Below, in pieces: positions 2,146-46,938 of a stretch of DNA of 64,000 nt (positions are counted from its first letter, which is position 1; each line of letters begins with the position of its first letter). The stretch is from positions 17,002,603 to 17,066,602 of the forward strand of contig OY783211.1 of NCBI GenBank assembly GCA_963678705.1, in the 5' to 3' direction. Position numbers and translations under genes: made by a program. The notes beneath the pieces were generated by a model. That model was not told the DNA's origin. It searched no databases and saw only the letters and a list, made by a program, of their open reading frames with translations. The stretch comes from Panorpa germanica (taxonomy: Eukaryota > Arthropoda > Insecta > Mecoptera > Panorpidae).

Positions 2146-3088
2146 ATCAACTTAAATGTGAGTTTTAGATGTGAAATATAAAGAAATAAAAATTGCTATA
2201 GTAAATATTATAATTGATATTAAATCTTAATATACAAAAATTCAGGTTGAGTATGTGCTCGAAAAATTCGAAAAATAGTCGGTCCATTTATTTTGAAACT
2301 TTGCGATAAAGTTGCATTTGCAAAGAGGCAAAGTTGCAAAAATCGAATTCATTTCTTTTCGGTTGTTCGTTGTTAATCCGACCATGAGAATATTGAAAAT
2401 TTGTTAACTAAGCTTTGTTCTTTGAATTAATTAGAAACTTCATATGAATTCGTCAATATTCATTTAATTGGAGTTTTTGAAATATTGTGGTTATTTGGCA
2501 GTATTTGGGTAGCGTTGATTGATGACGCCGTGACCTCTCGGGGCCCCTCTACGTCCGTACGGGGCTCATTATGACTAGATTAATATTTAATTTAAGACTT
2601 ATGTATTTGTGACTTGAACAAAATGTAATTATCCTACAAACAATTTGTCGTATCTTCGCAATCTCGTATCAGAGAGCGGTTAGACAGTAGTCAGACAGCG
2701 TTCGGGAGAACATATGTTAGTACTGTGGTAGTACTGGGTAGTAGCACAACTAGCACCTCGGCAAACCTCGTTTGGAAAGTATTAGGAAGGCAATCAGAGG
2801 AGGTACGGAGCGTTCCGGCTGGTGCAGACATGCTGTCCAAAGCTTCATGTAATGTCACACTAACGTCTAATAGGATTCCAATCACCATTCAGAGTGGTAC
2901 GATTAGCATCTAATTGGATTCCGATCAAAATTGTTTGTAGGGTACTGCTTTGGGCTCTAAAAATTATTGCCGGTTTTAGAACCTGATGTCATTCTAACTA
3001 TGTATTACGTACATTACATTCATACCAATAAGTTATACTTTGGTTACCATATGTGTATTTGTTATAACTATATGTATATTTGTTTCAG
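2146..3088. other. 5' flank / intron upstream of the repeat-M13 gene; no convincing exon found
   Basis: This stretch lies between the truncated LINE and the first recognised exon. It ends in a good acceptor (TATTTGTTTCAG, GT/AG boundary at 3088/3089). The exon frame is closed by a stop at 3065-3067 and has no ATG, so at least one upstream exon must supply the start codon and any signal peptide. I could not identify that exon. A GC-richer patch at 2520-2900 with short open frames is a candidate 5' UTR, but nothing there looks like a signal sequence or membrane anchor. Confidence 0.5.
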
Positions 3089-6000
3089 AAAAGTCAACCA
3101 TACATTTCATCAGGTAAAATATCAAGAGCATCACCCACCGAAAGCACAACAGAAATTGAAAAACATTCGAGTATATTGTCAACAGATGTAAGCGCATCAA
3201 ATACCGAAAGCACAATATCAGTAAAAATTGAAGATCCGAGTTCATTGTCAACAGATGTAAGCGCATCAAGTACCGAAAGCACAACATCAGTAAAAATTGA
3301 GGATCCTACTTCATTGTCAACAGATGTAAGTGCATCAAGTACCGAAAGCACAACATCAGTAAAAATTGAAGATCCTACTTCATTGTCAACAGATGTAAGC
3401 GCATCAAGTACCGAAAGCACAACATCAGTAAAAATTGAAGATCCGAGTTCATTGTCAACAGGTGTAAGCGCATCAAGTACCGAAAGCACAACATCAGAAA
3501 AAATTGAAGATCCGAGTTCATTGTCAACAGATGTAAGTGCATCAAGTACCGAAAGCACAATATCAGTAAAACTTGAAGATCCTACTTCATTGTCAACAGA
3601 TGTAAGTGCATCAAGTACCGAAAGCACAACATCAGTAAAAATTGAAGATCCTACTTCATTGTCAACAGATGTAAGCGCATCAAGTACCGAAAGCACAACA
3701 TCAGTAAAACTTGAAGATCTGAGTTCATTGTCAACAGATGTAAGTGCATCAAGTACCGAAAGCACAATATCAGTAAAACTTGAAGATCCTACTTCATTGT
3801 CAACAGATGTAAGTGCATCAAGTACCGAAAGCACAACATCAGTAAAACTTGAAGATCCTACTTCATTGTCAACAGATGTAAGTGCACCAAGTACCGAAAG
3901 CACAACATCAGTAAAACTTGAAGATCCTACTTCATTGTCAACAGATGTAAGTGCATCAAGTACCGAAAGCACAACATCAGTAAAACTTGAAGATCCTACT
4001 TCATTGTCAACAGATGTAAGTGCATCAAGTACCGAAAGCACAACATTAGTAAAAATTGAAGATCCCACTTCATTGTCAACAGATGTAAGCGCATCAAGTA
4101 CCGAAAGCACAACATCAGTAAAAATTGAAGATCCGAGTTCATTGTCAACAGATGTAAGTGCATCAAGTACCGAAAGCACAACATCAGAAAAAATTGAAGA
4201 TCCGAGTTCATTGTCAACAGATGTAAGTGCATCAAGTACCGAAAGCACAACATCAGTAAAACTTGAAGATCCTACTTCATTGTCAACAGATGTAAGTGCA
4301 TCAAGTACCGAAAGCACAACATTAGTAAAAATTGAAGATCCCACTTCATTGTCAACAGATGTAAGCGCATCAAGTACCGAAAGCACAACATCAGTAAAAC
4401 TTGAAGATCCGAGTTCATTGTCAACAGATGTAAGTGCATCAAGTACCGAAAGCACAACATCAGTAAAACTTGAAGATCCTACTTCATTGTCAACAGATGT
4501 AAGTGCATCAAGTACCGAAAGCACAACATCAGTAAAACTTGAAGATCCTACTTCATTGTCAACAGATGTAAGTGCATCAAGTACCGAAAGCACAACATCA
4601 GTAAAACTTGAAGATCCTACTTCATTGTCAACAGATGTAAGTGCATCAAGTACCGAAAGCACACCATCAGTAAAAATTGAAGATCCGAGTTCATTGTCAA
4701 CAGATGTAAGTGCATCAAGTACCGAAAGCACAACATTAGTAAAAATTGAAGATCCTACTTCATTGGCAACAGATGTAAGTGCATCAAGTACCGAAAGCAC
4801 AACATCAGTAAAACTTGAAGATCCTACTTCATTGTCAACAGATGTAAGCGCATCAAGTACCGAAAGCACAACATTAGTAAAAATTGAAGATCCCACTTCA
4901 TTGTCAACAGATGTAAGTGCATCAAGTACCGAAAGCACAACATCAGTAAAACTTGAAGATCCTACTTCATTGTCAACAGATGTAAGTGCATCAAGTACCG
5001 AAAGCACAATATCAGTAAAAATTGAAGATCCCACTTCAATGTCAACAGATGTAAGTGCATCAAGCACCGAAAGCACAACATCAGTAAAACTTGAAGATCC
5101 TACTTCATTGTCAACAGATGTAAGTGCATCAAGTACCGAAAGCACAACATTAGTAAAAATTGAAGATCCCACTTCATTGTCAACAGATGTAAGTGCATCA
5201 AGTACCGAAAGCACAACATCAGTAAAACTTGAAGATCCTACTTCATTGTCAACAGATGTAAGTGCATCAAGTACCGAAAGCACAACATCAGTAAAACTTG
5301 AAGATCCTACTTCATTGTCAACAGATGTAAGTGCATCAAGTACCGAAAGCACACCATCAGTAAAAATTGAAGATCCGAGTTCATTGTCAACAGATGTAAG
5401 TGCATCAAGTACCGAAAGCACAACATCAGTAAAACTTGAAGATCCTACTTCATTGTCAACAGATGTAAGTGCATCAAGTACCGAAAGCACAACATCAGTA
5501 AAACTTGAAGATCCTACTTCATTGTCAACAGATGTAAGTGCATCAAGTACCGAAAGCACACCATCAGTAAAAATTGAAGATCCGAGTTCATTGTCAACAG
5601 ATGTAAGTGCATCAAGTACCGAAAGCACAACATTAGTAAAAATTGAAGATCCTACTTCATTGGCAACAGATGTAAGTGCATCAAGTACCGAAAGCACAAC
5701 ATCAGTAAAACTTGAAGATCCTACTTCATTGTCAACAGATGTAAGCGCATCAAGTACCGAAAGCACAACATTAGTAAAAATTGAAGATCCCACTTCATTG
5801 TCAACAGATGTAAGTGCATCAAGTACCGAAAGCACAACATCAGTAAAACTTGAAGATCCTACTTCATTGTCAACAGATGTAAGTGCATCAAGTACCGAAA
5901 GCACAATATCAGTAAAAATTGAAGATCCCACTTCAATGTCAACAGATGTAAGTGCATCAAGCACCGAAAGCACAACATCAGTAAAACTTGAAGATCCTAC

Positions 6001-6674
6001 TTCATTGTCAACAGATGTAAGTGCATCAAGTACCGAAAGCACAACATTAGTAAAAATTGAAGATCCCACTTCATTGTCAACAGATGTAAGTGCATCAAGT
6101 ACCGAAAGCACAACATCAGTAAAACTTGAAGATCCTACTTCATTGTCAACAGATGTAAGTGCATCAAGTACCGAAAGCACAACATCAGTAAAACTTGAAG
6201 ATCCTACTTCATTGTCAACAGATGTAAGTGCATCAAGTACCGAAAGCACACCATCAGTAAAAATTGAAGATCCGAGTTCATTGTCAACAGATGTAAGTGC
6301 ATCAAGTACCGAAAGCACAACATCAGTAAAACTTGAAGATCCTACTTCATTGTCAACAGATGTAAGTGCATCAAGTACCGAAAGCACAACATCAGTAAAA
6401 CTTGAAGATCCTACTTCATTGTCAACAGATGTAAGTCCATCAAATACCGAAAGCACAAAATCATTAGATATTGAAGAACCGAATACAGTTAATACAAACT
6501 TTTGTAATACACTAGAATGTGGAAGTTTTCAATCTAGAATTTTAAGTTTATTGCGTAATGCATCTGACTATGATCCAAAATGTAATCAATTTTATAATGA
6601 TGTTTGTGGTGGGTTTAAGTCTCGAAAAGTAGCTGAAGAAGATGCCATGGCCTACGTATGGACAAGAATAAGAG
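3089..6674 (+). CDS. Exon A: repeat region and start of the M13 domain
   Basis: This 3586-nt exon begins after the acceptor TTTGTTTCAG and ends at AGAG|GTAAGT in phase 1. It starts with about 30 residues containing a diverged repeat (SRASPTESTTEIEKHSS), then the 48-unit array. From about codon 1139 it encodes the N-terminal M13 signature: two closely spaced cysteines (C1139, C1144), then DPKCNQFYNDVCGGF, equivalent to the family's D-P-C-x2-F-Y-x-Y-A-C-G-x-W. The frame also stays open past the donor to a stop near 6754, so an unspliced product would simply be short. Confidence 0.85.
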
Positions 6675-9600
6675 GTAAGTTCTTTCTAACTGTAAGGCTG
6701 TGTTTACATTTGCGTGTTCGATTAATCGTGCTGTTTGCCGATTATTCTAGGTAAAGACGGCGTGCACGATCATTCGGCGTGTTTACTATAACATACATTA
6801 GTAAAAATTGCTAATTATGCAATAAACATTCCGATACGTCCATACGAAGTATTGTGGGTTATGTTTAGTTGCCGAAACGCAAAAGCCATATTAGTTGATA
6901 TATACATGAAAGCACTTTTATAACAATGTTTTCTTTATAGGAGAAATGGAGAGTTCATCTGATCCAGAAAAGAAATATGTCAAAACTTTTAAAACTTTTT
7001 ATGATAGCTGTGACAATTTCTATAAAGATTTTGATAAGTCCGATACGATGGACCAAAGTAAGTAAATTAGAATGGTTTTATTGTGCCTAAATGTTTGCCA
7101 ATATCATCCTTATTTGAAGTTTTTCTGAAAGTATAATTATCATTAATTTTTTCAGTAAAAAAAATAATAACCAAAACGTTTGAATATCAGAAAGCAGATG
7201 ATTTAACAGATGTGTTCGCTAAATTAATTATGCAGCATAATAGCCTTTTGTTTGATGTTGTTCTCCAAATGGAGGAGTATTCCTCTGATAAGAGGAAAAT
7301 GATATTCACTTTATCACCTTCAAATCTGAAGAATATTCTAGTAGCAGCTGATAGCGATAATGAATATGAAAGATTTTCTAGGGAAACGAAGGAAGACATA
7401 TATCGTGTAAATAGAAATTATATATCTTTATACATTTCACTTGGTTAAGTCATGGTTCAATTTGATAGATTTGACATTTAACGAATTCATATTTGTTTAT
7501 AGTTCATAATGAATTCGCATTTGGCTTACTTAATTTTAACGTAACAAATATTTTGATCTTAATTTAAGCGCAACGGGTAATAAATATTGAAAATCAATTT
7601 TAGGCTACTCATACTTGTGATATAACAGACCTTAATAAAATCTATACAAATTGGGAAAAGCTTGCGAATAATAAAGATGATCATTTGAACAAGATTTTGA
7701 ACAAACTTTTCACGCTCTCAGACAATGTGGCAGAAATTTTAGATGCAGTGAAGCGTTTTCCATTCGACGATGAAAAAAAGTTAACTCAAGAATTGCCTAA
7801 CATTAATTACACCCCTAAAACAACAGAGCAACTTAATCTTCTCTGGAATAAACCGGTATGTGAATTTATAAACTTATTATAGAACATACATACAAACATA
7901 ATATACTGAGCACCTGAAGATGGCATTAAGTATAAAGTCGAAAGCTAGTGGTTTAATTAATAGTTTAAGGGAGGGGTTAGGATTTTCACTTTCGAAAAAT
8001 CCAATTTTTTTTTTGTCTTATCTTATTGCTTAATATTTCAAGAATATGTCCTTAAAATTTTAAGTCGATCTAAGCAATATTCTTGAAGTTATTGTCTTAT
8101 TAATCCGGTATATTATCTATATATTATATGTTAATCAGGTATACAGTTTATTCATTGCTATTGTCCTGAAGCGTTTTTCTCAAAACTACTTTTTTAAAGT
8201 CCGTGTTCACAGCCATTTAAAAACTAATTGAATTCATTTCAAACTTCGTACACATTTTCTACATATAAAATACCTCCCCCTAACGTTTAGATAAAAAAAT
8301 TCCTTTTACATTAAGGGTGTTTCCCACCCACAAAATGGCGGAACTTTTCGTGGAAAATAACAGTTCACACTTTAGATGGCCGCCAAAAATTTATAAATGA
8401 AAAAAAAATATATCAGAGACCGTTGGGGGGAAGATTTGATTATAATTTAACTAAATTTTAATTGTTTTTCATTTTCAAATACTTTCCCGCCGAGTTATAG
8501 TGAACACGGCAAATTGTCTTTTTCCCAAGACCTTCTGGAGAAAGCTTTGTTACCGCCTTATGCTTTAATATTGCTGCATGATAAAATTATACAACATAGT
8601 CAAAAGTATGCTCAATAATGTACAAAAGGTTCGAATAAAATTGCTCAATCTATACTTGAGAAAAAAAATCGCAACAAAGTGGTTTTTTTTACGCTGAAAC
8701 CCTAAACCCTCCCTTAATAAAGTAATTGGAGGTCTTAGCTAGTATTATAACAAGTTTTACTTTCACTTAATATAAATAATAACAAAAAATTGGAATAAAA
8801 TAAAGCATAGCATATATTTTAGGTGAACTGGGAAAATCTTTTCCAAGAGTTGCATATGGATGGAATGGAATACAATGTTCAGTATTCTGATTATTTTGTA
8901 GAAGTCATGGACGTGCTCAAGCATAATAGTTTACGGTATGTTTAAATTATGATCTGTATTTATTAATTGTCAACATTTTTAATTTTGGACAAATATTTCT
9001 AGAGATATCTCGTATGCTTTGAAAGGCAAGTATGCGTACGATCTGTATAACCAATTCGGTCATACACCTAAGAACAGGGAAGATTTTTGCTTGAAAGTTG
9101 CAAGCGGTTTGATGGAAGATGCCAGCTCTGCGATTTATTTGAACAGCTTCAAAAAAGACGAGTTAGATAACATGATTCAACTTGCAGAAAATGTATTCTC
9201 GTAAGTTATATGAAAACAAGTAATAATAGCTCAGTAAATAAATATTTAACCTCAAAATGAAAGTTACAATGAGACTTGAGTTTAGGTACCTTTATTCCGT
9301 GATTTACCATATTAATCGCCTTGTATTTAACTGATAGACCAATTAAATAAGGATTTAACCATTAGAAATGTGTATAAATCTTTGCATATAAGCCCATTGT
9401 AAAGAAACATGATAGACCCTTTATAAGTTATATAAAATTAAATTTATACACCGATCATTAATTTTTTTTAATTCTCAGAGACCTGAAGAATACAACGATT
9501 ACGCACTTGGAGGGCATACCTGAAGAATTAGGATATAATAATTTTTTATTGAATTTATTGAATAGGATGAAAAAATTAAATCTTTTTGTCCTTAGCGACA

Positions 9601-12600
9601 TTGATACTTTCTTACAAGAGGTAGAAAAAGAATTTGTAAATGTAAGTACAATTGGTTTAAAACCCACAAAGTCACTAATATAAGGTCTCCAGAAAGAGTA
9701 GCGGGGTCTTAAATCTTAAGAATATCTTAAAAGTAAAGTAACAATATTACCTCAGAAATGGCGGCAGCCCCGCAAGTAATGTGTCCACATATTGTTATTA
9801 ATCTTCGTTCGAGATTAAAGAAGTGCAAGCAGTGTGATTTTCCAATTCATTGTCTATAAATAATAAATAAATCATCTATTTGATTATCTATATTTTTTAT
9901 TTTATTATATTATTAAAATGACAGATGATCTTGATGCACAGAAAATGTACTAAAGTATACAAAAATATTTCAGGTTCGCCTGTCAGAAAACAAATTCATA
10001 GAAAACGTTCAAATTCTTCAAGAACGATATAGACGTTTAATGTACCAGAATCACAATAAACTAGCCATAAATGTAATTTGGCAGCACTTTATGACTCCCT
10101 ATCACACTAAAGCGAAGCAAATTTCTGACCTGGATGTCATTGGTAAATATAGGAAACTACAAAGTGTTCAATATTTCCAACACTAATTTTACCCATTTTG
10201 AATTAAAAGAAATAATTCTATGTTCCTAACAGAAATTTGGTTATTTTACTATCAGAAACAAATAGTATTTTCAATTTTGTTTATAAGAGAAAACATATTT
10301 TAACACTAGTGTTGTAAAATGTGTCGTATTGTCGTTCTGGAGGAGATTACTCAGCTTACTAGTACATTCTGCAGGGATGCTAGCTTCTGGTAGTAGATTC
10401 TTCAGTTGACGACTTCCAACACCAATTACAGTAGTAATCGAATATCTTTCTTAAGATGATTAATAAGGATTCTTGTTCAGACGGTGTATTGTTGCAATTA
10501 GAGAATACTTGAGCGGTCTAAAGTAACCTCGTTGCGACATGCGACGGTTGAACAATTAGTATCTTTTTATTACTATTAATACAAACACTTTTATTAAAAT
10601 ATATCATTTATTCGTTGTAATATTATATCTGCTTACTTAATTACAATAGTATTTTATTAGATTAACGAAGATGACAGATATAAAACAAAATGTAATTCTA
10701 TAGTGTTATAATTTAATTAATAGTTGAAATGTGCTCACTATTCAATACGTACGAAGTTGCGAATAGTAATGCTTGCTTTGAGACTCAGGAGAAGACTGGC
10801 TTTCAGCGTCTTGTGCAATTTAATATATAATAATTTATTTCACATCACAGAACGCCAATACTGAATTACCAGCATTAAATCAATATTAATCTCCACAAAC
10901 CAGAGACAATATTTATAAGCGCTAAACTTAAATAATTATTCTTTACAATCTTAATACTAATACAAAAACTGTTTACATAATATAATTCTATTACATAATT
11001 AACATTTAATATCATTAAAAATAAAAGGTAAGTGCGACATATGCGTACTTACAACACTCCTCAACCAAAGAAAAGGAACGCATATAAAACAAAACATATG
11101 CGTTTCTGCTCTAAGGAAAAGAAAAAGGAAAAATTGTGATAGGGGAGATGTCGTACATATCACAACACCCCCTTTCAAAAAAAAAGGGACACGTATAAAA
11201 ACAAAATATACGAGTTACAATTCTAGAAAAAAACAAAAAGAGAAGCAAAGTGTCGACAACGATTCTGATCCCATCGTATAGAGTTAACACTGCTCCACAA
11301 AACAATCATCCCTGACAAAATCCATTTCATTCGTCAAGTTTTTATTCATTGGTACAAAATCTCTTCAACCTATTATTATGAACTACCGTATGTTTTTTAC
11401 CAATTAGTATTTCTGTATTAACAGGGGATATAATTTTAGTAACTTTATACGGTCCTACGTATAAGGGTAAAAGTTTTTTTGACTGTCCTTTAGTTGGTAA
11501 CTGTTCATTTCTTAATAAAACTAGTTCGTTTACTTCAGGTGTGAAAAGAGAATTGACCCTTTTATCAAAATATAATTTTGTTTTTTCTTTGCTTTTAACC
11601 AAGTTATTCATAGCAAGTTCCCTCGCTACTTGTAACCTGTGTTTGAGTTCTACTATAAAATTATTATAAGTATTTACCTCAATTGGTTCTTTATAAAAAA
11701 TTGAAGGCAGATTTGCCTTATGTCCATAAATTAGTTCGAAAGGAGTAAAACCGGTCGCTGTATGCGGAGTTGTGTTATACACGAACATTGCATAGGGAAT
11801 CCAATTTATCCAATCATCCTGCTTTTTACAAAAATTCCTTAGATACTCGGCAAGGGTTCTATGAACTCTTTCTAAGGCACCGTTGGTTGCTGGTCTAAAT
11901 GCTGTTGTTTTTAATTGTTTAATTTTTAACAATTTGCATATATCTTTAAAAATTTTCGACATGAAATTTGTTCCTTGGTCTGTTAAGATCATATTAGGAA
12001 CTCCGTACCTACAAATAACGTTAGTTACTAATGCTTTCGCGACAGTATTTGCCTCCTGGTTTATAATAGGAATAGCTTCCGTAAATTTAGTAAGGTCATC
12101 CTGTATTGTTAGTAAGTATTTGTATTTGTCGTTGTCGTCTTTCTTGGGAAGATATACTATGTCCAAAGCCAACCTTTCGAAACTATGTTTCGAAGTCGAT
12201 GTAATTGTTAATGGGCATTTATTTAATTTGCACACTTTATTCTTTTGACATGATACACATTGTCTAATAAAATTTTTAACTTTTCTAATCATACTTGGAA
12301 ATTTAAAGTGTGATTTTAATCGTTTAATTGTTTTAGAAACTCCTAAGTGGCCTGCTGTGGGATTAACATGAAATTCCGAAATTACATTGTTTATTAACTC
12401 AGGGTCACTAATTTTAAGTATATTGTCATTATAAATGTGTACTATTATATTTGTTTTATCAAAGATATGTCTGATCATAGTTCGTAACTGGGCAAAATCT
12501 AATTTACTTAGTTCAGACTCGAACCTGTTCATAGCTATGTTAGTAATTTTGTGTAAAGTACAAAAGTTTTTCAGATTCACTAATGCCAAAAATATTTCTT

Positions 12601-15600
12601 TATAATTTGGTAGATTAAAATGAAATTCCTTAATTATTAAACAGATAATAAATCTAGTATCAATTTCAACATATGCAATTTCTGATACTTCTTTTTCTTG
12701 TATTAGAAATGCATTGGTACTACTAAATTTATTGATTAATTCAGGAGAATTTCCAATTGAATTTTTAAAATCTTTTGATACAAAATCTACTAATGAAAAT
12801 GACGTCGGTGCGTCATATAAACTTTTATCATGTTCAATTACTTTATTGTTTATGATAATTTTATTTTTAATTATTTCTAAATAATTTTCGTATGTGACAT
12901 CCATTGTTTCAACCTGAAGTGAGTATACACGACTTAGGGCATCTACGTGTGGAATCGAACTACCTGGTCTATATATTACTTCGTAATTATATTCCTCTAG
13001 TTTTATCCGCCAACGCATAAGTCTAGAACTCGGGTCCTTAATACTCATTAACCAAGTCAAGGCTTGATGGTCTGTTACGATACTAAAAAACTTTCCATAG
13101 AGATAGGGTCTAAAATGAGCCACAGCCCATACTACTGCTAATAACTCACGTTCAGTAGTTGTGTAATTTTGTTGTGCCTTATTTAGAGTTCTTGAAGCAT
13201 ATGCTATTGGGTGGCTTTCCTTAATAGTACCTTGTGAAAGGACTGCACCTATAGCATATTTACTTGCATCCGTGGTTACAACGAAATTTTTACTAAAGTC
13301 CGGGTATTGCAAAACAGGTGATATGGTTAATTTATTTTTTAAAGTTTTAAATGATTCGTCGCATTGGTCTGACCATTCTAATACTTTAACATTACTGTTT
13401 GCTGCATTATATAGTGGTTTGGCTATCTCTGCGTAATGCGGTATATGTCGGCGATAATAACCAGACATACCCAAAAATGTTTTAATTTGTTTAGGACTGT
13501 TTGGAATGGGGAAATTCTTTATTGCTTCTACTTTAGAAGGATCTGGTAGAATACCTGTTTCATTAATAACGTGACCTAAATAAATCAAATCTTTATGTAG
13601 AAAGTTACATTTGGATGGTTGGAGCTTCAAATTATGTTCCCGTAATTTAGAAAAAACGTTTTTTAATCTTTGGTTGTGCTCAGAAATGTTTTTTCCAAAA
13701 ATGACTACATCGTCCAGATAGATTAAGCAATCTATTCCTTGCAAACCTGTGAGAACGTGAGACATAAGTCTCTGAAACATGGGGGGGGCTCCTTTAAGTC
13801 CGAATGGCATTCTTACAAATTGATAGTGTTTAAAGTTCGCACTAAATGCTGTTTTCTCTTTATCTTCGGGAAGCATAGGGACCTGGTGAAAACCGCTTGC
13901 TAAGTCAAGGGTAGAGAAAAATTTTGCACCACTAAGTTGGTCCAGTATATCATGTATAAGAGGCAAAGGATAGGCGTCACTTGTTGTCTGCTCGTTAAGT
14001 TTACGGAAATCGACTACTACGCGGAATTGTTTATTACCTAACGCATCTGGTTTTTTTGGTACTACTAATAAAGGTGCGTTATAGGGTGAGTCGCTTTCTT
14101 CAATTATGTTGTTGACCAACAGTTCCTGAATATGCTTTTCCACAATCTCTTTTTGCGCATGGGGCAATCGATACGGTTTAACGTTAACGGGTTTAGAAGA
14201 ATTAATCTTTATCTTATGACTTAATGCGCTCGTACAAGATAACTTGTCTCCCGGTAAAAAAAATATGTCATTAAAGCTGTCACAGATTTCTATTAATTCT
14301 GTTACTAATTCTGAATTGACATGTGAAAGATTTAAATTGTTTAATAAAAGTTCCTTACGGTTGTTAGGACTTGATTTTGAAAAATGGTAAATACTAAATT
14401 GATCTATCGGTATGATATTCGGTTTGAAATTACTAAGTATTATATTTTTTATTGAAGAATTTATTATTGAAATATAGAAAATATTTTTGACGGGCTTGAT
14501 TAATGCATTAGCTAAAAAAACTTCAGGTAACAATTCCCTGGCTACACAAACTCCTACTGTAGAACCTGACATAGGAATTATCTTCCTCGTACGTGCTGGT
14601 AAAACGATATTGTTTATATTTATAAGTGGGAGCTCAATTACTTTGCCACATTCTGAGAATTGTACACTGTTCATTTTTAGATTAATTACTGCATTTAGTT
14701 TCCGTAAAATATCTAACCCTATAATTCCATCGTGTTTAATGGGGAAATTTTCTGACACAACCTGTAAAGTTTGTTTCGACTTATTACTATCTAAAATTAT
14801 AGAAGTTTTCAGTGAACCTAAGGTATAAGGCGTGCCTTCAGAAATACCCTTCAATAGAATTTTAGATTTATTATTAATTCTGACATTGTTATTTAAAATA
14901 TTTTGTTTAATCAAGGAGATTTGAGAACCAGTATCTAATAAAAATGATACGGTTTTAGCTTTGGCTGCGACCATCTTGAATTGGATAGTGTCAACTGTTT
15001 GCTTAGCCTTAACATTTTTATTTTTACTGTCAAAACTTAGAATATCATTATTATTTTGTAAATTACCCGTATTGATCTCATCAAAATCATAAAAAAAACA
15101 TAATTCATTATTTGAATTGTGTTGTGTCTTGTTAGTAAAAGATACTTGAGAACCATCAGATATAAGATGTTTCGATCTTTCACAACAAGTAGAAGGTTCT
15201 GATAAAATTGTGGCCTCCCTACAAGTATTAACTTGAGCAATAGGGTTACCCGTATCTAGATTTTCCTTCTTAATAAAACAATACTTTTCTGTATGACCAC
15301 TTTTCTTACAATGGTTACAGAACAAATTTTTAGTTTTTGTTTCGACCTTATTAGGAATTTGCTTGCTTGAAACTGGTTTACTATTAGAATTAGGAACGCT
15401 TGGATATGTTTTGACTTTAATATGCCTTCTTCTTTCTAGATTGCGCCACCGTCTCTCCAGAAACTCTGTAAATTCATTTAAGGTTGGTAATTCAGAATTA
15501 TTTCTGTTTTCCCATTCCTTTGACGAATTAAAATCTAATTTGGTCTTTAAAATATGTATTAACATAAAATCTGAATGATTAGAATATATCCCCAATTCGG

Positions 15601-18600
15601 TTAATGCTCTAATCGATTCATTAATTTCATCTAGTAGTTTTTTGATATTGATTTCGGACTCTAAACGTATAACATTGTAGTTTATTAAATTGTTTAAACA
15701 GGTTTCAATAAGTGCTACCTTGTTATCATAACGTTTACAAAGGATGTTCCAAACAATTTCGTAATTATCATTTGTTAAAGGATAATTCTTTATGAGTTTG
15801 AGTGGTTCTCCTGACAAATTTAACTTTAAATAATGCATTTTTTCAATGCTTGATAGTTTACTATTATTACGAATTAAATTTGTAAATAATTCCATAAAAC
15901 TTTGCCAATTAATATATTCTCCATCAAAAACGGTTAGTTGCATTGGACTTAAGTTCAGATTTTTTATTGAATCTATACTTTTTGAGTCGTCTACAATATG
16001 TGTATCATTCTCAAATGTTTGCTTATAATTCAACAAGTAAATAAGAGTGTCGTCATAAATACTTTCAACTTCTATAGACTTACTAACGATAGCCGAAGCT
16101 TCTTCATTTTTTAGAGTTGGAAGCAATGCTTCTACGATACTACTATATTTAACCCAAGCTTTGTCTAAGTTTTTGATTTTTAATTCAACTATTGTTAAGG
16201 ATGTTGATTGGACTTCTAGATTTTTTGAAAACTCATTAATTAGATTGATTGTATTCTCAACTAGTGTGAGTGAATGAACGTTCGGTGCCATAGTACTTAA
16301 TTAAAGTTATATATAATATACAGACTAAAGATTATTTTGTACCAATAAACGACTCTCCGAAAAATAGGATTCTGACAAGGAAAAATTGTTAGCGAAAACA
16401 GTAACTCACTGGAAATTTCCGATGGGGCTCAGACACCGCAGTTGTAACAGGAAGGTAGTCTCTCTGATTGAACAGACTGCTATCTAACTGCTTCAGCTCT
16501 TTACTTCTCCTTTTCAAAATTCTTTCTCGTTCATAAAGATGTTCTAAAAATATTAAACATGAATTAATATAATTGTAGAAACAATTATAGGAAATATTAT
16601 AGTAGATATTCAAAAGTATTGGATATAATACTAAAAATATTGAACAATGATGCTACAAAATTGTTATTTTATAACAAATATTCAAAAGTATTGAATATAA
16701 TACTAAAAAATAATAGCTTCAATGAATTACAAGGATGCTACTAATAGATAGGTTATAGCAAATATTCAAAAGTATTGAATATAATACTAAAAAAATAATA
16801 GCTTCAATGAACTACAAGGATGCTACTAATAGATAGGTTATAGCAAATATTCAAAAGTATTGAATATAATACTAAAAAAATAATAGCTTCAATGAATTAC
16901 AAGGATGCTACTAATAGAAAAAAATACAATTATCAATTTATGATAATAATTGTATACAAGATAAAAAGATACTGTCTTATTATACTTAACAAAAAAAACT
17001 TTCGATTTTGATCTATGTACAGCTGTGTGCAGGGTTCTGGAAACGATTAACATCAGTTTAGATTATTCCATTTGTTCTAGAAGCATCCATCCATTCGCTG
17101 GGGGCAAAAGATTTCTTTTTTTTTCTGGTTCAGCGGGCTGTTGTTTTACATCCACCGGACTTGTAGAAAAATTATGTGAAATACAGATGAATTGACGTTC
17201 TATCTCGTACTCTTCGGCAATCTTGGAAATAATCGATCGACGTAGTGGTATCCAGAATAATTGATCTGCATCCAGGTGTAGAATATATAGAAAAAATTTT
17301 GGGCGTACCTCTTGGATATTTATGTGTAGGAATATCTCTTCGAGACCCCACCTGACACCAATGTTGTAAAATGTGTCGTATTGTCGTTCTGGAGGAGATT
17401 ACTCAGCTTACTAGTACATTCTGCAGGGATGCTAGCTTCTGGTAGTAGATTCTTCAGTTGACGACTTCCAACACCAATTACAGTAGTAATCGAATATCTT
17501 TCTTAAGATGATTAATAAGGATTCTTGTTCAGACGGTGTATTGTTGCAATTAGAGAATACTTGAGCGGTCTAAAGTAACCTCGTTGCGACATGCGACGGT
17601 TGAACAATTAGTATCTTTTTATTACTATTAATACAAACACTTTTATTAAAATATATCATTTATTCGTTGTAATATTATATCTGCTTACTTAATTACAATA
17701 GTATTTTATTAGATTAACGAAGATGACAGATATAAAACAAAATGTAATTCTATAGTGTTATAATTTAATTAATAGTTGAAATGTGCTCACTATTCAATAC
17801 GTACGAAGTTGCGAATAGTAATGCTTGCTTTGAGACTCAGGAGAAGACTGGCTTTCAGCGTCTTGTGCAATTTAATATATAATAATTTATTTCACATCAC
17901 AGAACGCCAATACTGAATTACCAGCATTAAATCAATATTAATCTCCACAAACCAGAGACAATATTTATAAGCGCTAAACTTAAATAATTATTCTTTACAA
18001 TCTTAATACTAATACAAAAACTGTTTACATAATATAATTCTATTACATAATTAACATTTAATATCATTAAAAATAAAAGGTAAGTGCGACATATGCGTAC
18101 TTACAACACTAGTATGTAAATGTAAAGTTGACGTTTCGATTTTTCGAATAAAGGATAATTATTTTAATTTAATTTTTAATTAATATTATTTGAATCAGGA
18201 TATATTGACTAAAAATATCTCCTTGGACATCTATAAAGTTCCTAATTCTTTACAGTGGTACCTTTTGGATTGCTCGACTCTCTACAATATTTAATAGATT
18301 TACCAGAGTATGTAAAATTGGCACGTTTAGGACATATTTTAGGATATGAAATTGGACAATATTTAGATGAATTTCAAATTTATACCAGTTTTAACACCAT
18401 TGGTCAAGAGGGGAATTTTTTGTCTTTTATTGAAGATACAAATGAAAGATGTGATGGAAATTTTGGGTATAAGACATTAACCCTTGATATCGATGGATGC
18501 AGTGCAAAACATATCAAGGTAAGAAATTATTGACTACCTTAATAATGGGCTTGTGGCCTATGTCTTAATTTCTATAAAACTGTACTATATATTGATAAAG

Positions 18601-20375
18601 TTGGCTACCAGCACCTCAAATGAACTTATTACTTTTCGCCGAGACAGGCGGGATCGGGTGCTTTCGTCTCGCGTTGGCTTGCCTCGGGTCATGAGCGGTA
18701 TTTTTTAAACAAGTCAAAGGAAACAAGAGACTAGATACAATAGTGTATTTCGCACCACATAGTTACTTGCTTTCTCGTGAAATGCATTTTAACGTCAGCT
18801 ATTTGTTGAGTAGGTCAGTGCTGTGGTAATGTTTTGTAGCTGTTGGTAGTCGAAATATTCAAGTCAAGTAATAGAATAATAAGTTTTTATTTTATTTAAC
18901 CATGTTACGGCAAAAATAATATTGATATTTTATTGTTCCTTGAAATAGCTGTAAATAATATTTGATATTTTGATATATAAATACATATAGTAGAGATTTA
19001 TGAGCTGTAAGGTTGAAAACCTGGAAACTTGTCAGAGTTCTGTCAAGAATATATCTCTTTTACGCTCTGCTGTATAAAAGAGATAGCAACTAGCGGTTGT
19101 AATGTCACAAACATTTGGAATGTGTACAACGTTGAATCCCTTTAATAATTAAAGAGACAAAATGACTTATTTAATTGTTAATATCTCTTAACATATAAGG
19201 AGTTATTAAAAAATAATTGAACATTTGAGGTTCTAGTACCCACTTTATCAATATATAGTACACTTTTATAGAAATTAAGACATAGGACACAAGCCCATTA
19301 AAGTGGAAAAATGATTATTTCAATCGCTAATAGCTTCTATAATATTGTGAATTGAATAAAAATAATTGGTTGTTTAAGGTTTTAATAGCCATCTTTATCA
19401 ATACTGTTTCATAAATTAGGTTATGGTTCACAACCCAATTCTCTAATCATCATCATTTACTGTATAAGTTATCTTACTAGTCAATTTACAGTTAACTGTC
19501 CATTATACCCAGTAAACAATTTGGTGAAGTGTCCTATTTGGTGAAGTTCGAGTCACTCGTACAATTCTATTCTAACGCTTTACAAGTTCTCTACCTGTCA
19601 CAGATTTTGTGTTAGTTTTTCATAATAATATTCTTTCTTTTTCCAACATCATTCATTAAGTATTTCTGTTTCTTTCCCACATGGGTATATTTTTATTATC
19701 CGGTCATAAATCATAAACCTACTCCGCTTTTAATTCAGCAGTGAACCGTCGTTGCAATGTCTGTAGCTCATAAAAAGGACCTTTCCTATGAACGACTGAA
19801 TAGAAAACGAACACGTTCCAGACAAAAAATTCATGATATGTAATAAAAATTAAGTAGAATTTACTCCAAAATGTTTACTGGGTAGCATACACTCATGCTC
19901 CGGTTTACCGGTAAAGGTGGACCGTTGCGATAAAACTGTCCGGTAAATCGTTACGTGCATGATCAGCATAACGCGGTACTGGTTTAACTTGTTCACCATA
20001 TGTTTTATTTTTCAGATGTACGCAAACTCAACAATCATTGAATGCAAGGCAGATGCCATGGCACTGAAACTTGCACTAGATACGGTTACACGCAAAAGCA
20101 ACTCCGAAGCCCAAGAAAGTTTACCACGTCTTAAAGAGTGGTCAGTTGAGAAATTGTTTTTCATTGCTCTAGGACAATCTTTCTGTACCAAGCAAAGCAT
20201 TTTTGAACAAAGTACATATCAATTGAACCAAGGAAGTTTACCAAATGGTGTTAGACTTACAGAAATGTTGAAAGGTTCTGAAGAATTTAAAACAGTTTTT
20301 AATTGTACATATGAGGATACTGCTATACCAATTCCAATTGAACAAGATGATGTTGAAGCTCAGAAGAAGAAGTAA
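3089..20375 (+). CDS. Repeat-bearing, catalytically dead M13 (neprilysin-like) pseudopeptidase, ten exons, N-terminus missing
   Basis: Exons: A 3089-6674, B 6941-7057, C 7156-7406, D 7604-7855, E 8823-8935, F 9003-9200, G 9479-9641, H 9974-10142, I 18256-18518, J 20016-20375. All introns are GT-AG, phases agree throughout, and the sum is 5472 nt (1823 aa plus stop). Residues about 31-1133 are 48 repeats of 23 aa; about 1139-1823 form an M13 domain of normal ectodomain length. M13 landmarks: cysteines in ECGSF and PKCNQFYNDVCGGF, FYDSCDNF, LTDVFAKLIMQHNSLLFDV, the substrate-pocket region, the zinc helix and the C-terminal LFFIALGQSFC...FNC block. Active M13 enzymes have HExxH...ExxxD and NA(F/Y)Y. 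Here these read Y1647-E-I-G-Q1651, E1713-x3-D1717 and N1593-V-I-W. Two of three zinc ligands are therefore lost and peptidase activity is not expected. A secreted or membrane-anchored binding role is inference. Introns D-E, H-I and I-J carry transposons. Confidence 0.85.
3179..6490 (+). repeat. 48 tandem units of 69 bp (23 aa), coding, Ser/Thr-rich and acidic
   Basis: The unit starts at TCAACAGATGTAAG. The first lies at 3179 and the last at 6422, exactly 47 x 69 bp apart, so there are 48 units with no net length change. The encoded unit is STDVSASSTES-TTS followed by VK(I/L)EDP(T/S)SL. Twelve of 23 residues are Ser or Thr, and four are acidic against one lysine, giving roughly -3 charge per unit. 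Variants are few and shared between units (SEKIEDPSS, TLVKIEDPT, TPSVKIEDPSS, one SLA, one SM). Near-identity at silent sites points to ongoing homogenisation by unequal exchange. The composition suits an extended, possibly O-glycosylated stalk, but glycosylation is inference. The last unit (SPSNTESTKSLDIEEP) is diverged, as array edges usually are. Confidence 0.95.
6941..7057 (+). CDS. Exon B of the M13 pseudopeptidase
   Basis: This 117-nt exon lies between TTTCTTTATAG and CAAA|GTAAGT, entering and leaving in phase 1. It encodes EMESSSDPEKKYVKTFKTFYDSCDNFYKDF and a few more residues. FYDSC matches the family's (L/F)Y-x-S-C block that follows the N-terminal cysteine cluster, so this disulphide is probably kept. 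The adjoining introns are short (266 and 98 bp). Confidence 0.85.
7156..7406 (+). CDS. Exon C of the M13 pseudopeptidase
   Basis: This 251-nt exon runs from the acceptor TTTTTTCAG to the donor ATCGT|GTAAAT (phase 0 exit). It encodes a segment typical of the M13 N-terminal lobe: DDLTDVFAKLIMQHNSLLFDVVLQMEEYSS and then KMIFTLSPSNLKNILV. This corresponds to the family's 'L-x2-L-x3-G-x3-LF-x2-V-x2-D-x2-N' stretch. The donor is the weakest in the gene (GTAAAT). The frame stays open to a stop at 7446, so intron retention would truncate the protein. Confidence 0.8.
7604..7855 (+). CDS. Exon D of the M13 pseudopeptidase
   Basis: This 252-nt exon has acceptor CAATTTTAG and donor ACCG|GTATGT, both phase 0. 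It encodes ATHTCDITDLNKIYTNWEKL, a helical stretch, FPFDDEKKLTQELPNINY and ends LNLLWNKP. The position fits the helical middle of the M13 N-terminal lobe, where sequence conservation is low. The frame agreement on both sides is the main support. Confidence 0.75.
7975..8717. mobile_element. TTAA-flanked short inverted-repeat element (MITE) in intron D-E
   Basis: The left end reads TTAAGGGAGGGGTTAGGATT. The right end, read on the opposite strand, is TTAAGGGAGGGTTTAGGGTT. The TTAA at each end could be the 4-bp target duplication of a piggyBac-like transposase, leaving a 735-bp element with about 20-bp termini. No open frame lies inside. Without it the host intron would shrink from 967 to about 230 bp. 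Superfamily assignment rests on TTAA alone, and the termini begin GGG rather than the usual CCC of piggyBac, so it is tentative. Confidence 0.65.
8823..8935 (+). CDS. Exon E of the M13 pseudopeptidase
   Basis: This 113-nt exon has acceptor ATATATTTTAG and donor TTACG|GTATGT (exit phase 2). It encodes VNWENLFQELHMDGMEYNVQYSDYF then VEVMDVLKHNS. The start (V-N-W-x2-L-F/L) matches the conserved M13 motif for this region. The next intron is only 67 bp, the smallest in the gene. Confidence 0.8.
9003..9200 (+). CDS. Exon F of the M13 pseudopeptidase
   Basis: This 198-nt exon has acceptor AATATTTCTAG and donor TTCTC|GTAAGT, phase 2 in and out. It encodes DISYALKGKYAYDLYNQFG then NREDFCLKVASGLMEDASSAIYLNSF. 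This is the M13 block R-x2-x-C-x3-V-x6-A-x3-(L/I)Y that links the two lobes, with the conserved cysteine present. Confidence 0.85.
9479..9641 (+). CDS. Exon G of the M13 pseudopeptidase
   Basis: This 163-nt exon has acceptor TTAATTCTCAG and donor GTAAAT|GTAAGT. It enters in phase 2 and exits in phase 0. It encodes DLKNTTITHLEGIPEELGYN then LLNRMKKLNLFVLSD. This is the region that in active enzymes carries W-x-D-x2-T-x3-A and the I-G-Y-P-D turn. Here only the overall spacing is preserved, so this region has diverged strongly. Confidence 0.75.
9974..10142 (+). CDS. Exon H of the M13 pseudopeptidase (degenerate NA(F/Y)Y substrate motif)
   Basis: This 169-nt exon has acceptor AAAATATTTCAG and donor ATTG|GTAAAT (exit phase 1). 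It encodes VRLSENKFIENVQILQERY and ends KLAINVIWQHFMTPYHTKAK then ISDLDVI. At the place where active M13 enzymes have V-N-A-(F/Y)-Y-S-P it reads I-N-V-I-W-x3-M-T-P. The Asn that contacts the substrate backbone stays, but Ala and the two aromatics have changed. DVI joins exon I as DVIVVPFGLL, matching the family's I-V-F-P-A-G-I-L, which supports splicing across the retrotransposon. Confidence 0.85.
10306..10309. repeat. Target-site duplication CTAG (left copy)
   Basis: CTAG lies immediately before the left LTR (TGTTGTAAAA at 10310) and again at 18109-18112 after the right LTR (ending TTACAACA at 18108). A 4-bp duplication is normal for a Ty3/gypsy-type integrase. Its perfect preservation agrees with a young insertion. 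CTAG is palindromic. Confidence 0.85.
10310..11056 (-). repeat. 3' LTR of the gypsy element (747 bp)
   Basis: It begins TGTTGTAAAATGTGTCG and ends CGTACTTACAACA on the + strand. It has the same length as the copy at 17362-18108, and I see no difference between them when reading in parallel. The short terminal inverted repeat TGTTGTAA is present. Confidence 0.95.
11057..11260 (-). promoter_or_regulatory. Polypurine-tract region with a duplicated hairpin / pseudo-LTR start
   Basis: Read on the element's strand, two similar modules lie in tandem before the 3' LTR. The proximal one has an 8-bp stem (11078-11085 with 11096-11103, loop AAAACAAAA-like), a T-rich run and GAGGAG, then TGTTGTAAGTACGC (the real LTR start). 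The distal one has a 6-bp stem (11192-11197 with 11207-11212), a T-run, GAAAGGGGG, then TGTTGTGATATGTACGAC (11167 downward), resembling another LTR start. Plus-strand priming from either tract is inference. Confidence 0.55.
11342..16291 (-). CDS. Gag-Pol polyprotein of a Ty3/gypsy element with a DUF1759-like gag
   Basis: One uninterrupted 1649-aa frame encodes both the structural and enzymatic functions. Residues about 113-290 resemble the DUF1759 gag domain best known from BEL/Pao elements (FDGEYINWQSFMELF, then LKLNLSGEPLKLI). A CCHC zinc knuckle (CNHCKKSGHTEKYC) lies near 325, and the aspartic protease LLDTGSQISLI near 453. The RT has FRVVVDFRKLNEQT and YLDDVVIFG (Y858). RNase H starts near 1004 (TTDASKYAIGAVL). 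The integrase has an HHCC zinc finger (about 1306-1349) and a D,D,E triad (LALDIV about 1377, LTDQGTNF about 1437, GALERVH about 1471). All key residues are present, so the element may still be able to move. Pol order and motifs are Ty3/gypsy; the gag assignment is by recognition only. The start ATG follows the leader. Confidence 0.95.
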   Translation of the reverse strand: MAPNVHSLTLVENTINLINEFSKNLEVQSTSLTIVELKIKNLDKAWVKYSSIVEALLPTLKNEEASAIVSKSIEVESIYDDTLIYLLNYKQTFENDTHIVDDSKSIDSIKNLNLSPMQLTVFDGEYINWQSFMELFTNLIRNNSKLSSIEKMHYLKLNLSGEPLKLIKNYPLTNDNYEIVWNILCKRYDNKVALIETCLNNLINYNVIRLESEINIKKLLDEINESIRALTELGIYSNHSDFMLIHILKTKLDFNSSKEWENRNNSELPTLNEFTEFLERRWRNLERRRHIKVKTYPSVPNSNSKPVSSKQIPNKVETKTKNLFCNHCKKSGHTEKYCFIKKENLDTGNPIAQVNTCREATILSEPSTCCERSKHLISDGSQVSFTNKTQHNSNNELCFFYDFDEINTGNLQNNNDILSFDSKNKNVKAKQTVDTIQFKMVAAKAKTVSFLLDTGSQISLIKQNILNNNVRINNKSKILLKGISEGTPYTLGSLKTSIILDSNKSKQTLQVVSENFPIKHDGIIGLDILRKLNAVINLKMNSVQFSECGKVIELPLININNIVLPARTRKIIPMSGSTVGVCVARELLPEVFLANALIKPVKNIFYISIINSSIKNIILSNFKPNIIPIDQFSIYHFSKSSPNNRKELLLNNLNLSHVNSELVTELIEICDSFNDIFFLPGDKLSCTSALSHKIKINSSKPVNVKPYRLPHAQKEIVEKHIQELLVNNIIEESDSPYNAPLLVVPKKPDALGNKQFRVVVDFRKLNEQTTSDAYPLPLIHDILDQLSGAKFFSTLDLASGFHQVPMLPEDKEKTAFSANFKHYQFVRMPFGLKGAPPMFQRLMSHVLTGLQGIDCLIYLDDVVIFGKNISEHNQRLKNVFSKLREHNLKLQPSKCNFLHKDLIYLGHVINETGILPDPSKVEAIKNFPIPNSPKQIKTFLGMSGYYRRHIPHYAEIAKPLYNAANSNVKVLEWSDQCDESFKTLKNKLTISPVLQYPDFSKNFVVTTDASKYAIGAVLSQGTIKESHPIAYASRTLNKAQQNYTTTERELLAVVWAVAHFRPYLYGKFFSIVTDHQALTWLMSIKDPSSRLMRWRIKLEEYNYEVIYRPGSSIPHVDALSRVYSLQVETMDVTYENYLEIIKNKIIINNKVIEHDKSLYDAPTSFSLVDFVSKDFKNSIGNSPELINKFSSTNAFLIQEKEVSEIAYVEIDTRFIICLIIKEFHFNLPNYKEIFLALVNLKNFCTLHKITNIAMNRFESELSKLDFAQLRTMIRHIFDKTNIIVHIYNDNILKISDPELINNVISEFHVNPTAGHLGVSKTIKRLKSHFKFPSMIRKVKNFIRQCVSCQKNKVCKLNKCPLTITSTSKHSFERLALDIVYLPKKDDNDKYKYLLTIQDDLTKFTEAIPIINQEANTVAKALVTNVICRYGVPNMILTDQGTNFMSKIFKDICKLLKIKQLKTTAFRPATNGALERVHRTLAEYLRNFCKKQDDWINWIPYAMFVYNTTPHTATGFTPFELIYGHKANLPSIFYKEPIEVNTYNNFIVELKHRLQVARELAMNNLVKSKEKTKLYFDKRVNSLFTPEVNELVLLRNEQLPTKGQSKKLLPLYVGPYKVTKIISPVNTEILIGKKHTVVHNNRLKRFCTNE
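16600..16925 (-). repeat. About 85-bp tandem repeats in the gypsy leader
   Basis: Roughly three and a half copies share ATTCAAAAGTATTGAATATA, then ATAGCTTCAATGAA(T/C)TACAAGGATGCTACTAATAGATAGG. The first copy is shorter and diverged. The array lies between the 5' LTR and the gag start. It is AT-rich and contains the short palindrome TTCAAAAGTATTGAA. A role in packaging or translation is possible but not shown. Confidence 0.85.
17343..17360 (-). other. Primer-binding site, possibly tRNA-Leu type
   Basis: On the element's strand the sequence one base after the 5' LTR reads TGGTGTCAGGTGGGGTCT. It begins TGG, complementary to a tRNA CCA end. The first ten bases resemble the 3' end of insect leucine tRNAs, while the rest agrees less well. 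The tRNA identity is from memory and therefore tentative. Confidence 0.6.
17362..18108 (-). repeat. 5' LTR of the gypsy element (747 bp)
   Basis: This is the second copy of the 747-bp LTR, with the same TGTTGTAA...TTACAACA ends and no visible difference from 10310-11056. As the 5' LTR it should hold the element's promoter, reading leftward and away from exon I. Confidence 0.95.
18109..18112. repeat. Target-site duplication CTAG (right copy)
   Basis: It matches CTAG at 10306-10309 and marks the right junction between retrotransposon and host intron. Confidence 0.85.
18256..18518 (+). CDS. Exon I of the M13 pseudopeptidase (HExxH replaced by YEIGQ)
   Basis: This 263-nt exon has acceptor CCTAATTCTTTACAG and donor ATCAAG|GTAAGA. 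It enters in phase 1 and exits in phase 0. It encodes VPFGLLDSLQYLIDLPEYVK then LARLGHILGYEIGQYLDE, aligning with the family's F-P-A-G-I-L...L-N-Y-G-x2-G-x2-I-G-H-E-x2-H-x-(F/L)-D-D. The zinc helix keeps only its Glu (18348-18350): the first His is Tyr (18345-18347) and the second is Gln (18357-18359). The remainder (CDGNFGYKTLTLDIDGCS) fits the loop before the third ligand. It lies only 143 bp from the retrotransposon's right end, yet its acceptor is undamaged. Confidence 0.9.
18544..19299 (-). mobile_element. MITE-1 copy A, chimeric, in intron I-J
   Basis: It starts AATGGGCTTGTGGCCTATG and ends CATAGGACACAAGCCCATT. Both ends match the same (left) end of the family for about 80 bp in inverted orientation, unlike normal copies, which share only about 16 bp. 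Between 18625 and 18777 lies a GC-richer segment not seen in other copies. From 18778 the order is the usual reverse-orientation interior, including the internal stem ATCTCTTTTA/TAAAAGAGAT. Confidence 0.85.
19508..19882. mobile_element. MITE-3, intact 375-bp copy in intron I-J, TA target duplication
   Basis: Left end is CCCAGTAAACAATTTGG. The right end, inverted, is CCCAGTAAACATTTTGG. TA lies on each side (19506-19507 and 19883-19884), as for Tc1/mariner-type elements. There is no open frame. Related halves occur at 23880-24048 and 26177-26535. Confidence 0.75.
20016..20375 (+). CDS. Exon J of the M13 pseudopeptidase (C-terminus and stop)
   Basis: This 360-nt exon follows the acceptor TGTTTTATTTTTCAG in phase 0. 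STIIECKADAMALKLALDTV aligns with the family's T-L-G-E-N-x2-D-N-G-G-L-K-x-A, so the third zinc ligand Glu (E1713) and the Asp four later (D1717) are retained, but the N and GG are lost. The C-terminal block WSVEKLFFIALGQSFCTKQS, LPNGVRL and EEFKTVFNCT is well kept. The usual terminal C-x-x-W is absent. The protein instead ends in an acidic-then-basic tail (IEQDDVEAQKKK). Confidence 0.9.
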   Translation: MYANSTIIECKADAMALKLALDTVTRKSNSEAQESLPRLKEWSVEKLFFIALGQSFCTKQSIFEQSTYQLNQGSLPNGVRLTEMLKGSEEFKTVFNCTYEDTAIPIPIEQDDVEAQKKK

Positions 20376-46922: not shown

Positions 46923-46938
46923 GACTTTGTCAATATTA
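46923..46938. repeat. 16-bp LINE target-site duplication (right)
   Basis: An exact second copy of GACTTTGTCAATATTA. Confidence 0.9.

Follow-up and report, generated by a model that had tools for sequence, protein, structure and literature searches.

The window, a 64-kb stretch of Panorpa germanica DNA (C8:17002603-17066602), carries a gene for a neprilysin-like M13 protein. Positions are counted from the first base of the window unless a contig is named. Ten exons lie between 3089 and 20375 (+), with GT donors and AG acceptors at their boundaries, and spliced together they form a frame of 1823 codons that runs uninterrupted to its stop codon. The initial annotation had described these ten exons, in one frame and with normal splice sites, and was exact to the base. 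It had missed the start codon and the membrane anchor, because the gene extends 5′ of the window by one exon. As this upstream exon encodes a membrane segment, the most likely gene model read from the sequence has 11 exons and encodes 1876 residues, arranged as a type II membrane protein. The predicted order is a short tail (about 20 residues intracellular), an anchor, a Ser/Thr-rich stalk, and a degenerate M13 ectodomain.

Exon 1 lies at C8:17001993-17002151 and has 53 codons, starting with an ATG at C8:17001993, 610 bases upstream of the window. It was located by tblastn with the first 70 residues of three beetle homologues, described below, against 20 kb of upstream sequence and the start of the window. 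One clear place was found, with E values of 1.5e-8 (Aquatica P0001), 8.7e-8 (Aquatica P0002), and 0.004 (Trypoxylus P0003). The next best N-terminal match had an E of 0.026 in 268,925 partly overlapping bases, a search that took in 10 to 20 kb upstream of the eight non-array M13 loci but, for the C10 array, no sequence 5′ of the genes. The translation of exon 1 is MAKNSYNINYREEGRVDSSFKLCFCTLCFFIVLFSAILLLMTLKPWKKEKEIE, followed by GTAAGA, and its splice phase matches exon 2. It contains a strongly hydrophobic stretch of 20 residues, predicted from sequence to be the N-terminal transmembrane segment by which Goe-like proteins are recognized.

Exon 2 (3089-6674 (+); exon A of the initial annotation) encodes the Ser/Thr-rich repeat stalk and the start of the M13 ectodomain (NTNFCNTLECG...), and tblastn with the Trypoxylus protein supports it at 6482-6673 (E 3e-6). 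The M13 ectodomain continues through exons 3 (6941-7057), 4 (7156-7406), 5 (7604-7855), 6 (8823-8935), 7 (9003-9200), and 8 (9479-9641), all on the + strand. Exon 7 is matched by Aquatica P0002 (E 2e-4), exons 3 and 4 have weak tblastn matches of their own (E 0.42-0.45 and 0.51), and exons 5, 6, and 8 have none and are aligned in the whole protein. Exon 9 (9974-10142 (+); own match weak, E 2.3) encodes a degenerate NAYY region with Lys at the Asn542 position. The degenerate zinc helix is encoded by exon 10 (18256-18518 (+); exon I of the initial annotation), whose own matches are also weak (E 0.31-0.43). Exon 11 (20016-20375 (+); formerly exon J) encodes ECKAD, keeps Arg717, has lost His711, and ends with the stop codon. 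Taken alone, exon 11 scores 45.5 bits against PF01431 and has a tblastn E of 3.6e-5.

Tandem Repeats Finder places a tandem array at 3175-6477 (+), with 47.9 copies of a 69-bp unit (23 aa per unit; 95% matches, 0% indels). Ser or Thr occupies 12 of the 23 residues of the repeat consensus. In-frame reading of 47 units gave 18 different DNA sequences, which encode 15 different protein units; the commonest (16/47) is LSTDVSASSTESTTSVKLEDPTS. The stalk, counted up to the ectodomain, makes up 1134 of the 1823 in-window residues, and its composition (30% Ser, 20% Thr) suggests an extended, O-glycosylated structure. The repeat-unit variants comprise 17 distinct changes, 5 synonymous and 12 nonsynonymous, and with an uninformative pN/pS of 0.81 there is no clear purifying selection on the units. 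The minus strand of the array is open too (3094-6528 (-), 1144 codons), since the 69-bp unit is a multiple of three. Being open on both strands, the array proves nothing by its openness alone.

An LTR retrotransposon at 10310-18108 (-) sits in the intron that separates exon 9 from exon 10. Its two 747-bp LTRs (10310-11056 and 17362-18108) have 0 mismatches, and the target duplication is CTAG. Since the LTRs do not differ, this 7.8-kb insertion is very young. The intron measures 8113 bases with the element and 310 without it, and both splice sites are intact. A single long open frame, 11342-16300 (-), encodes Pfam DUF1759 beside protease, reverse transcriptase, RNase H, and integrase domains; DUF1759 is a domain met more often in BEL/Pao elements. 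Inside the element, between the open frame and the 17362-18108 LTR, there are direct repeats about 85 bp long (16549-16959). Reverse-transcriptase fragments (PF00078) at 976-2151 (-), in the first intron of the gene, and at 45766-46929 (-) are probably from non-LTR retrotransposons.

The window protein matches PF01431, the C-terminal M13 domain, with 61.5 bits (E 1.2e-16; curated cut-off 24.5). This match is not due to chance, and the initial annotation was right to place the protein in M13. PF05649, the N-terminal M13 domain, is present in 3/3 homologues; at E ≤ 0.1 the window protein gave no reported match to it. When the window sequence alone was compared with solved structures, one M13 chain matched (6row, E 2e-5), and the only other match at E ≤ 1 was 2l69 (E 0.31). 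A profile of the window protein, P0001, and the Trypoxylus protein matched ECE-1 (3dwb) with E 7e-28 and neprilysin (1dmt) with E 3e-23. An AlphaFold2 model of Aquatica P0001, built with three rows, had a mean pLDDT of 32.1 and a pTM of 0.22. With a homologue model at a pLDDT of about 32, the M13 fold is supported by sequence only.

Active-site residues were compared, in neprilysin numbering, by aligning the window protein and the three homologues with ECE-1 and eight M13 rows from the same genome. HExxH is replaced by YEIGQ at 18345-18359 (+), within the helix GYEIGQYLDEF, where Tyr is encoded at 18345-18347, the catalytic Glu at 18348-18350, and Gln at 18357-18359. The third zinc ligand position is Glu1713 (20040-20042 (+)), in ECKAD, where Asp650 is also kept. 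The initial annotation had read the YEIGQ codons and the third ligand in exon 11 correctly and had recognized the loss of both zinc histidines. It had overlooked the additional losses of Asn542, Asp709, and His711, each of which is kept in 0/4 of the window protein and its homologues. At the His583 position, the window protein, P0001, P0002, and Trypoxylus have Tyr, Arg, Arg, and Gln (His kept 0/4), and at the His587 position Gln, Arg, His, and Arg, so that His is kept only in Aquatica P0002 (1/4). The third-ligand Glu646 is kept in 3/4 and is Arg in Trypoxylus; the catalytic Glu584, Asp590, Asp650, and Arg717 are each kept in 4/4. Eight cysteines are likewise invariant in all four proteins (Cys 5, 10, 31, 39, 85, 335, 627, and 667 of the M13 part) and presumably match four disulfides of neprilysin.

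Four motifs of active neprilysins have been listed (Meyer et al. 2021). The window protein has YEIGQ for HExxH, KAK in the places of NAY/FY, and ECKAD for ENIAD(xGG), with the ligand Glu and Asp650 kept, and no CxxW was found in its M13 part or in P0001-P0003. It is therefore a Nepl protein as that class is defined in PMC8223033, neprilysin-like with at least one catalytic motif missing.

The initial annotation had proposed a search for M13 homologues and an alignment of their zinc helices. A search of 5.8 billion proteins returned at least three relatives at E ≤ 10 (E 3e-28 to 3e-25), all from beetles and all without HExxH; three is a lower bound, because scoring was confined to the 8000 candidates with the most words in common. 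They are RN001_008364 (P0001) and RN001_008365 (P0002) of the firefly Aquatica leii (Lampyridae, Elateroidea) and Trydic_g5685 (P0003) of the scarab Trypoxylus dichotomus (Scarabaeidae, Scarabaeoidea). No further relatives came from a search with the C-terminal part of P0003 or from a search with the profile of the window protein, P0001, and Trypoxylus, in which 8000 candidates were scored. The window protein is 22-26% identical to any relative found. An N-terminus with a membrane segment, a long Thr/Ser-rich stalk, and an M13 ectodomain without HExxH are common to all four proteins. The stalks of the relatives are roughly 200 (P0001, P0002) and 400 (P0003) residues long, with no 23-aa array evident by eye. 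P0001 and P0002 are consecutively numbered and 89% identical; the first reads REIGR and the second REIGH, so the second zinc His position is still changing.

A tree of the C-terminal domain was built from 28 rows (the window protein, three homologues, 23 M13 rows from the same genome, and ECE1), with three own-genome rows shorter than 105 residues dropped. The window protein and the three homologues form a clade with support of 99/98, and the grouping persists (99/98.9) when the zinc motif is masked and P0002 omitted. The four proteins thus have in common what was proposed to define a stalked pseudo-M13 clade: N-terminus, stalk, loss of HExxH, and C-terminal grouping. The terminal branch of the window protein is very long (2.34 changes per column), so relaxed constraint is possible, its placement is uncertain, and the tree alone is weak. 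The common first exon, identified by sequence similarity, is support independent of the tree. AU tests, each to be read with caution given the long window branch, rejected a placement of the window protein as a decayed member of the tandem-array group. Joining it to the 17 array-type rows gave p 0.00045, and the corresponding values were 0.000185 for L029 and L034 and 0.011 for L021. Holding the window protein with all own-genome rows gave p 0.0104, which is not a clean test because ECE1 is also forced out of those rows. Given the clade and the common first exon, the first zinc His was most likely lost before the window, Aquatica, and Trypoxylus lineages split, with the residues drifting afterwards; alternatively, it may have been lost separately in these lineages. 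On the aligned residues, the predicted pseudopeptidase is common to the window species and the beetle lineages.

The genome containing the window (464 Mb, 249 contigs) has at least 73 exon matches to PF01431. The search did not pick up exon 10 of the window gene and may therefore have missed other degenerate genes too. Outside the window, HExxH is present at 22 of 25 zinc-helix loci. The three loci without it (L029 HEIIY, L031 HHLTH, and L034 QELII) all belong to a tandem array of 17 M13 loci at C10:14.636-14.815 Mb (L016, L017, and L022-L036), in which pseudopeptidases seem to arise repeatedly. Among the own-genome loci compared, L031 gave the best tblastn match outside the window (E 2e-4). 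Two nearly identical M13 copies with HELTH, L013 (C8:4.70 Mb, -) and L014 (C8:19.50 Mb, +), lie in opposite orientation 14.8 Mb apart and represent either a recent inverted duplication or an assembly effect.

The gene probably encodes a maintained, zinc-free M13 pseudopeptidase with a type II anchor and a long Ser/Thr stalk, whose ectodomain would bind ligands without cutting them. The N-terminal segment would anchor the protein in the membrane, and the long Ser/Thr-rich, probably O-glycosylated stalk would hold the ectodomain off the cell. Loss of both zinc histidines, Asn542, Asp709, and His711 would leave no peptidase activity, and inactivity is predicted with high confidence. Activity is unexpected because His583, His587, Asn542, and His711 are lost, judging from the neprilysin biochemistry in PMC2259306 and PMC7822871. 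The ectodomain could still bind peptide or growth-factor ligands and tether or shield them instead of cutting, as proposed for Drosophila Nepl15 and Goe. Binding is proposed because Arg717 is retained together with Asp650. In neprilysin, Arg717 pairs with Asp650 and makes hydrogen bonds to the backbone carbonyls of bound inhibitors (PMC7822871). The same paper states that PHEX binds substrates and keeps them from being cleaved, with no need for catalysis. Ligand sequestration would be the likeliest function; the trapping of peptides or growth factors, taken alone, falls slightly below an even chance.

The stalk could instead do the work, with the protein serving in surface adhesion or as a spacer or mucin-like coat, the M13 part being a structural relic and its ligand pocket unused. 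Such a role would suit a stalk that fills 1134 of 1823 in-window residues and is half Ser/Thr, the long Thr/Ser-rich stalks of the homologues, and the very fast divergence of the ectodomain. It is nevertheless unlikely, since all four proteins retain Asp650, Arg717, and the catalytic Glu584, beyond the needs of a pure relic, and the stalks vary greatly in length and sequence among species, the M13 part and the N-terminus being what is common.

A gene under relaxed constraint, a pseudogene in the making with a frame open by chance, could account for the very long terminal branch, the unreported PF05649, the very young LTR insertion (0 LTR differences) that took an intron from 310 to 8113 bases, and the missing PF01431 match of exon 10 in the genome search. 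The long branch and PF05649 count against maintenance, as do the lack of own tblastn matches for exons 5, 6, and 8 and the low-pLDDT homologue model. This explanation is nonetheless improbable, more so than a coat. The ten in-window exons keep GT/AG boundaries and no stop, and the 689 codons of the ectodomain have 0 stops despite differing from each relative at about three quarters of positions. Stops appear quickly under random redraw: with 10% of sites redrawn in 1000 trials, there were 9.4 stops on average and 2 at minimum. The first exon, the eight cysteines, and key residues are common to the beetle homologues. The gene is read as maintained on the open ectodomain frame, the outcome of the redraw, the cysteines, and the homologues. 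Exon 10 is 263 nt long, so skipping it breaks the frame. The initial annotation had held that use of another exon encoding HExxH would overturn its reading. HExxH occurs in none of the three frames read on the + strand of the window, nor on the + strand of the flanks L009, L010, and L038, and the five occurrences on the minus strand of the window all lie beyond the gene; an alternative exon replacing exon 10 in the window coding strand or these flanks was therefore rejected. A maintained, catalytically dead M13 protein, as the initial annotation had it, is supported as the best reading by the intact frame, the cysteines, and three homologues without HExxH.

A still-active enzyme with an atypical metal site of Tyr, Glu, Gln, and Glu ligands is highly improbable, although Glu584 and the third-ligand Glu are present. 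The residues at the two histidine positions vary among the relatives, the first being Tyr, Arg, Arg, and Gln and the second Gln, Arg, His, and Arg, and none of the four proteins retains Asn542, Asp709, or His711.

Beyond the single gene, it may be suggested, with some doubt, that beetles possess a distinct lineage, of old origin, of zinc-free neprilysins that are tethered to the membrane and raised on long mucin-like stalks. These would trap or receive peptides that active cousins would destroy, and their stalk length would evolve fast through tandem-repeat expansion in one exon. Inactive M13 proteins are numerous in insects, and few have a known role. The set from firefly, scarab, and window species offers a clean natural case of a neprilysin fold that would be able only to bind, and the positions of Glu584, Asp650, and Arg717 are predicted to matter for a binding role.

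Inactive insect M13 proteins are already well documented (PMC8223033, PMC2259306). Drosophila expresses all 28 of its genes of this kind, 7 Nep and 21 Nepl, and the Nepl proteins are predicted to be inactive and, in almost every case, secreted (PMC8223033). In an M13 alignment of 2008, important catalytic or structural positions were deleted or substituted in 30 of the 111 sequences (PMC2259306). With Drosophila Nepl genes and such degenerate sequences on record, the kind is known, and the initial reading is amended in that the loss is common to the beetle homologues. A beetle set combining a membrane anchor with a repeat-built stalk was not reported among the literature matches listed and would be the new element here.

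The closest architecture is that of Drosophila Goe (Gone early, Nepl2, CG9634), described in PMC4242634 as an M13 homologue without HExxH, type II transmembrane, with a long outside part. The extracellular part of Goe lowers EGFR signalling, and EGF trapping at the producing cell is one proposal given there (PMC4242634). Its intracellular domain has 129 residues (PMC4242634), against about 20 in the window protein. Goe also lacks ExxA/GD (PMC4242634; given as EAxxD and V in PMC11266112), whereas ECKAD of the window protein fits ExxAD, with E and A-D kept. The likeness to Goe described here is one of architecture and motifs.

Drosophila Nepl15 (CG4721) affects lipid and glycogen storage and has been modelled to sequester peptides (PMC7822871, the source also for the residues that follow). 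Two of its three zinc ligands are Arg, as are both His positions in Aquatica P0001. Like the window protein, it has no counterpart of Asn542 or His711 and keeps counterparts of Asp590, Asp650, and Arg717. Ala543 has become Pro in Nepl15 and in P0001-P0003 but is still Ala in the window protein; the catalytic Glu is Gln in Nepl15 and still Glu here; and Nepl15 is likely secreted, whereas the window protein is predicted to be membrane-anchored. The likeness to Nepl15 is drawn residue by residue. Trypoxylus, unlike the window protein, has also lost the third-ligand Glu, and in P0002 the second His is retained. The ectodomains of human neprilysin (1dmt) and ECE-1 (3dwb) are homologous with the window profile; unlike the window protein, these two are zinc enzymes with HExxH, NAFY (1dmt) or NAYY (3dwb), GENIAD, and the His711 position present.
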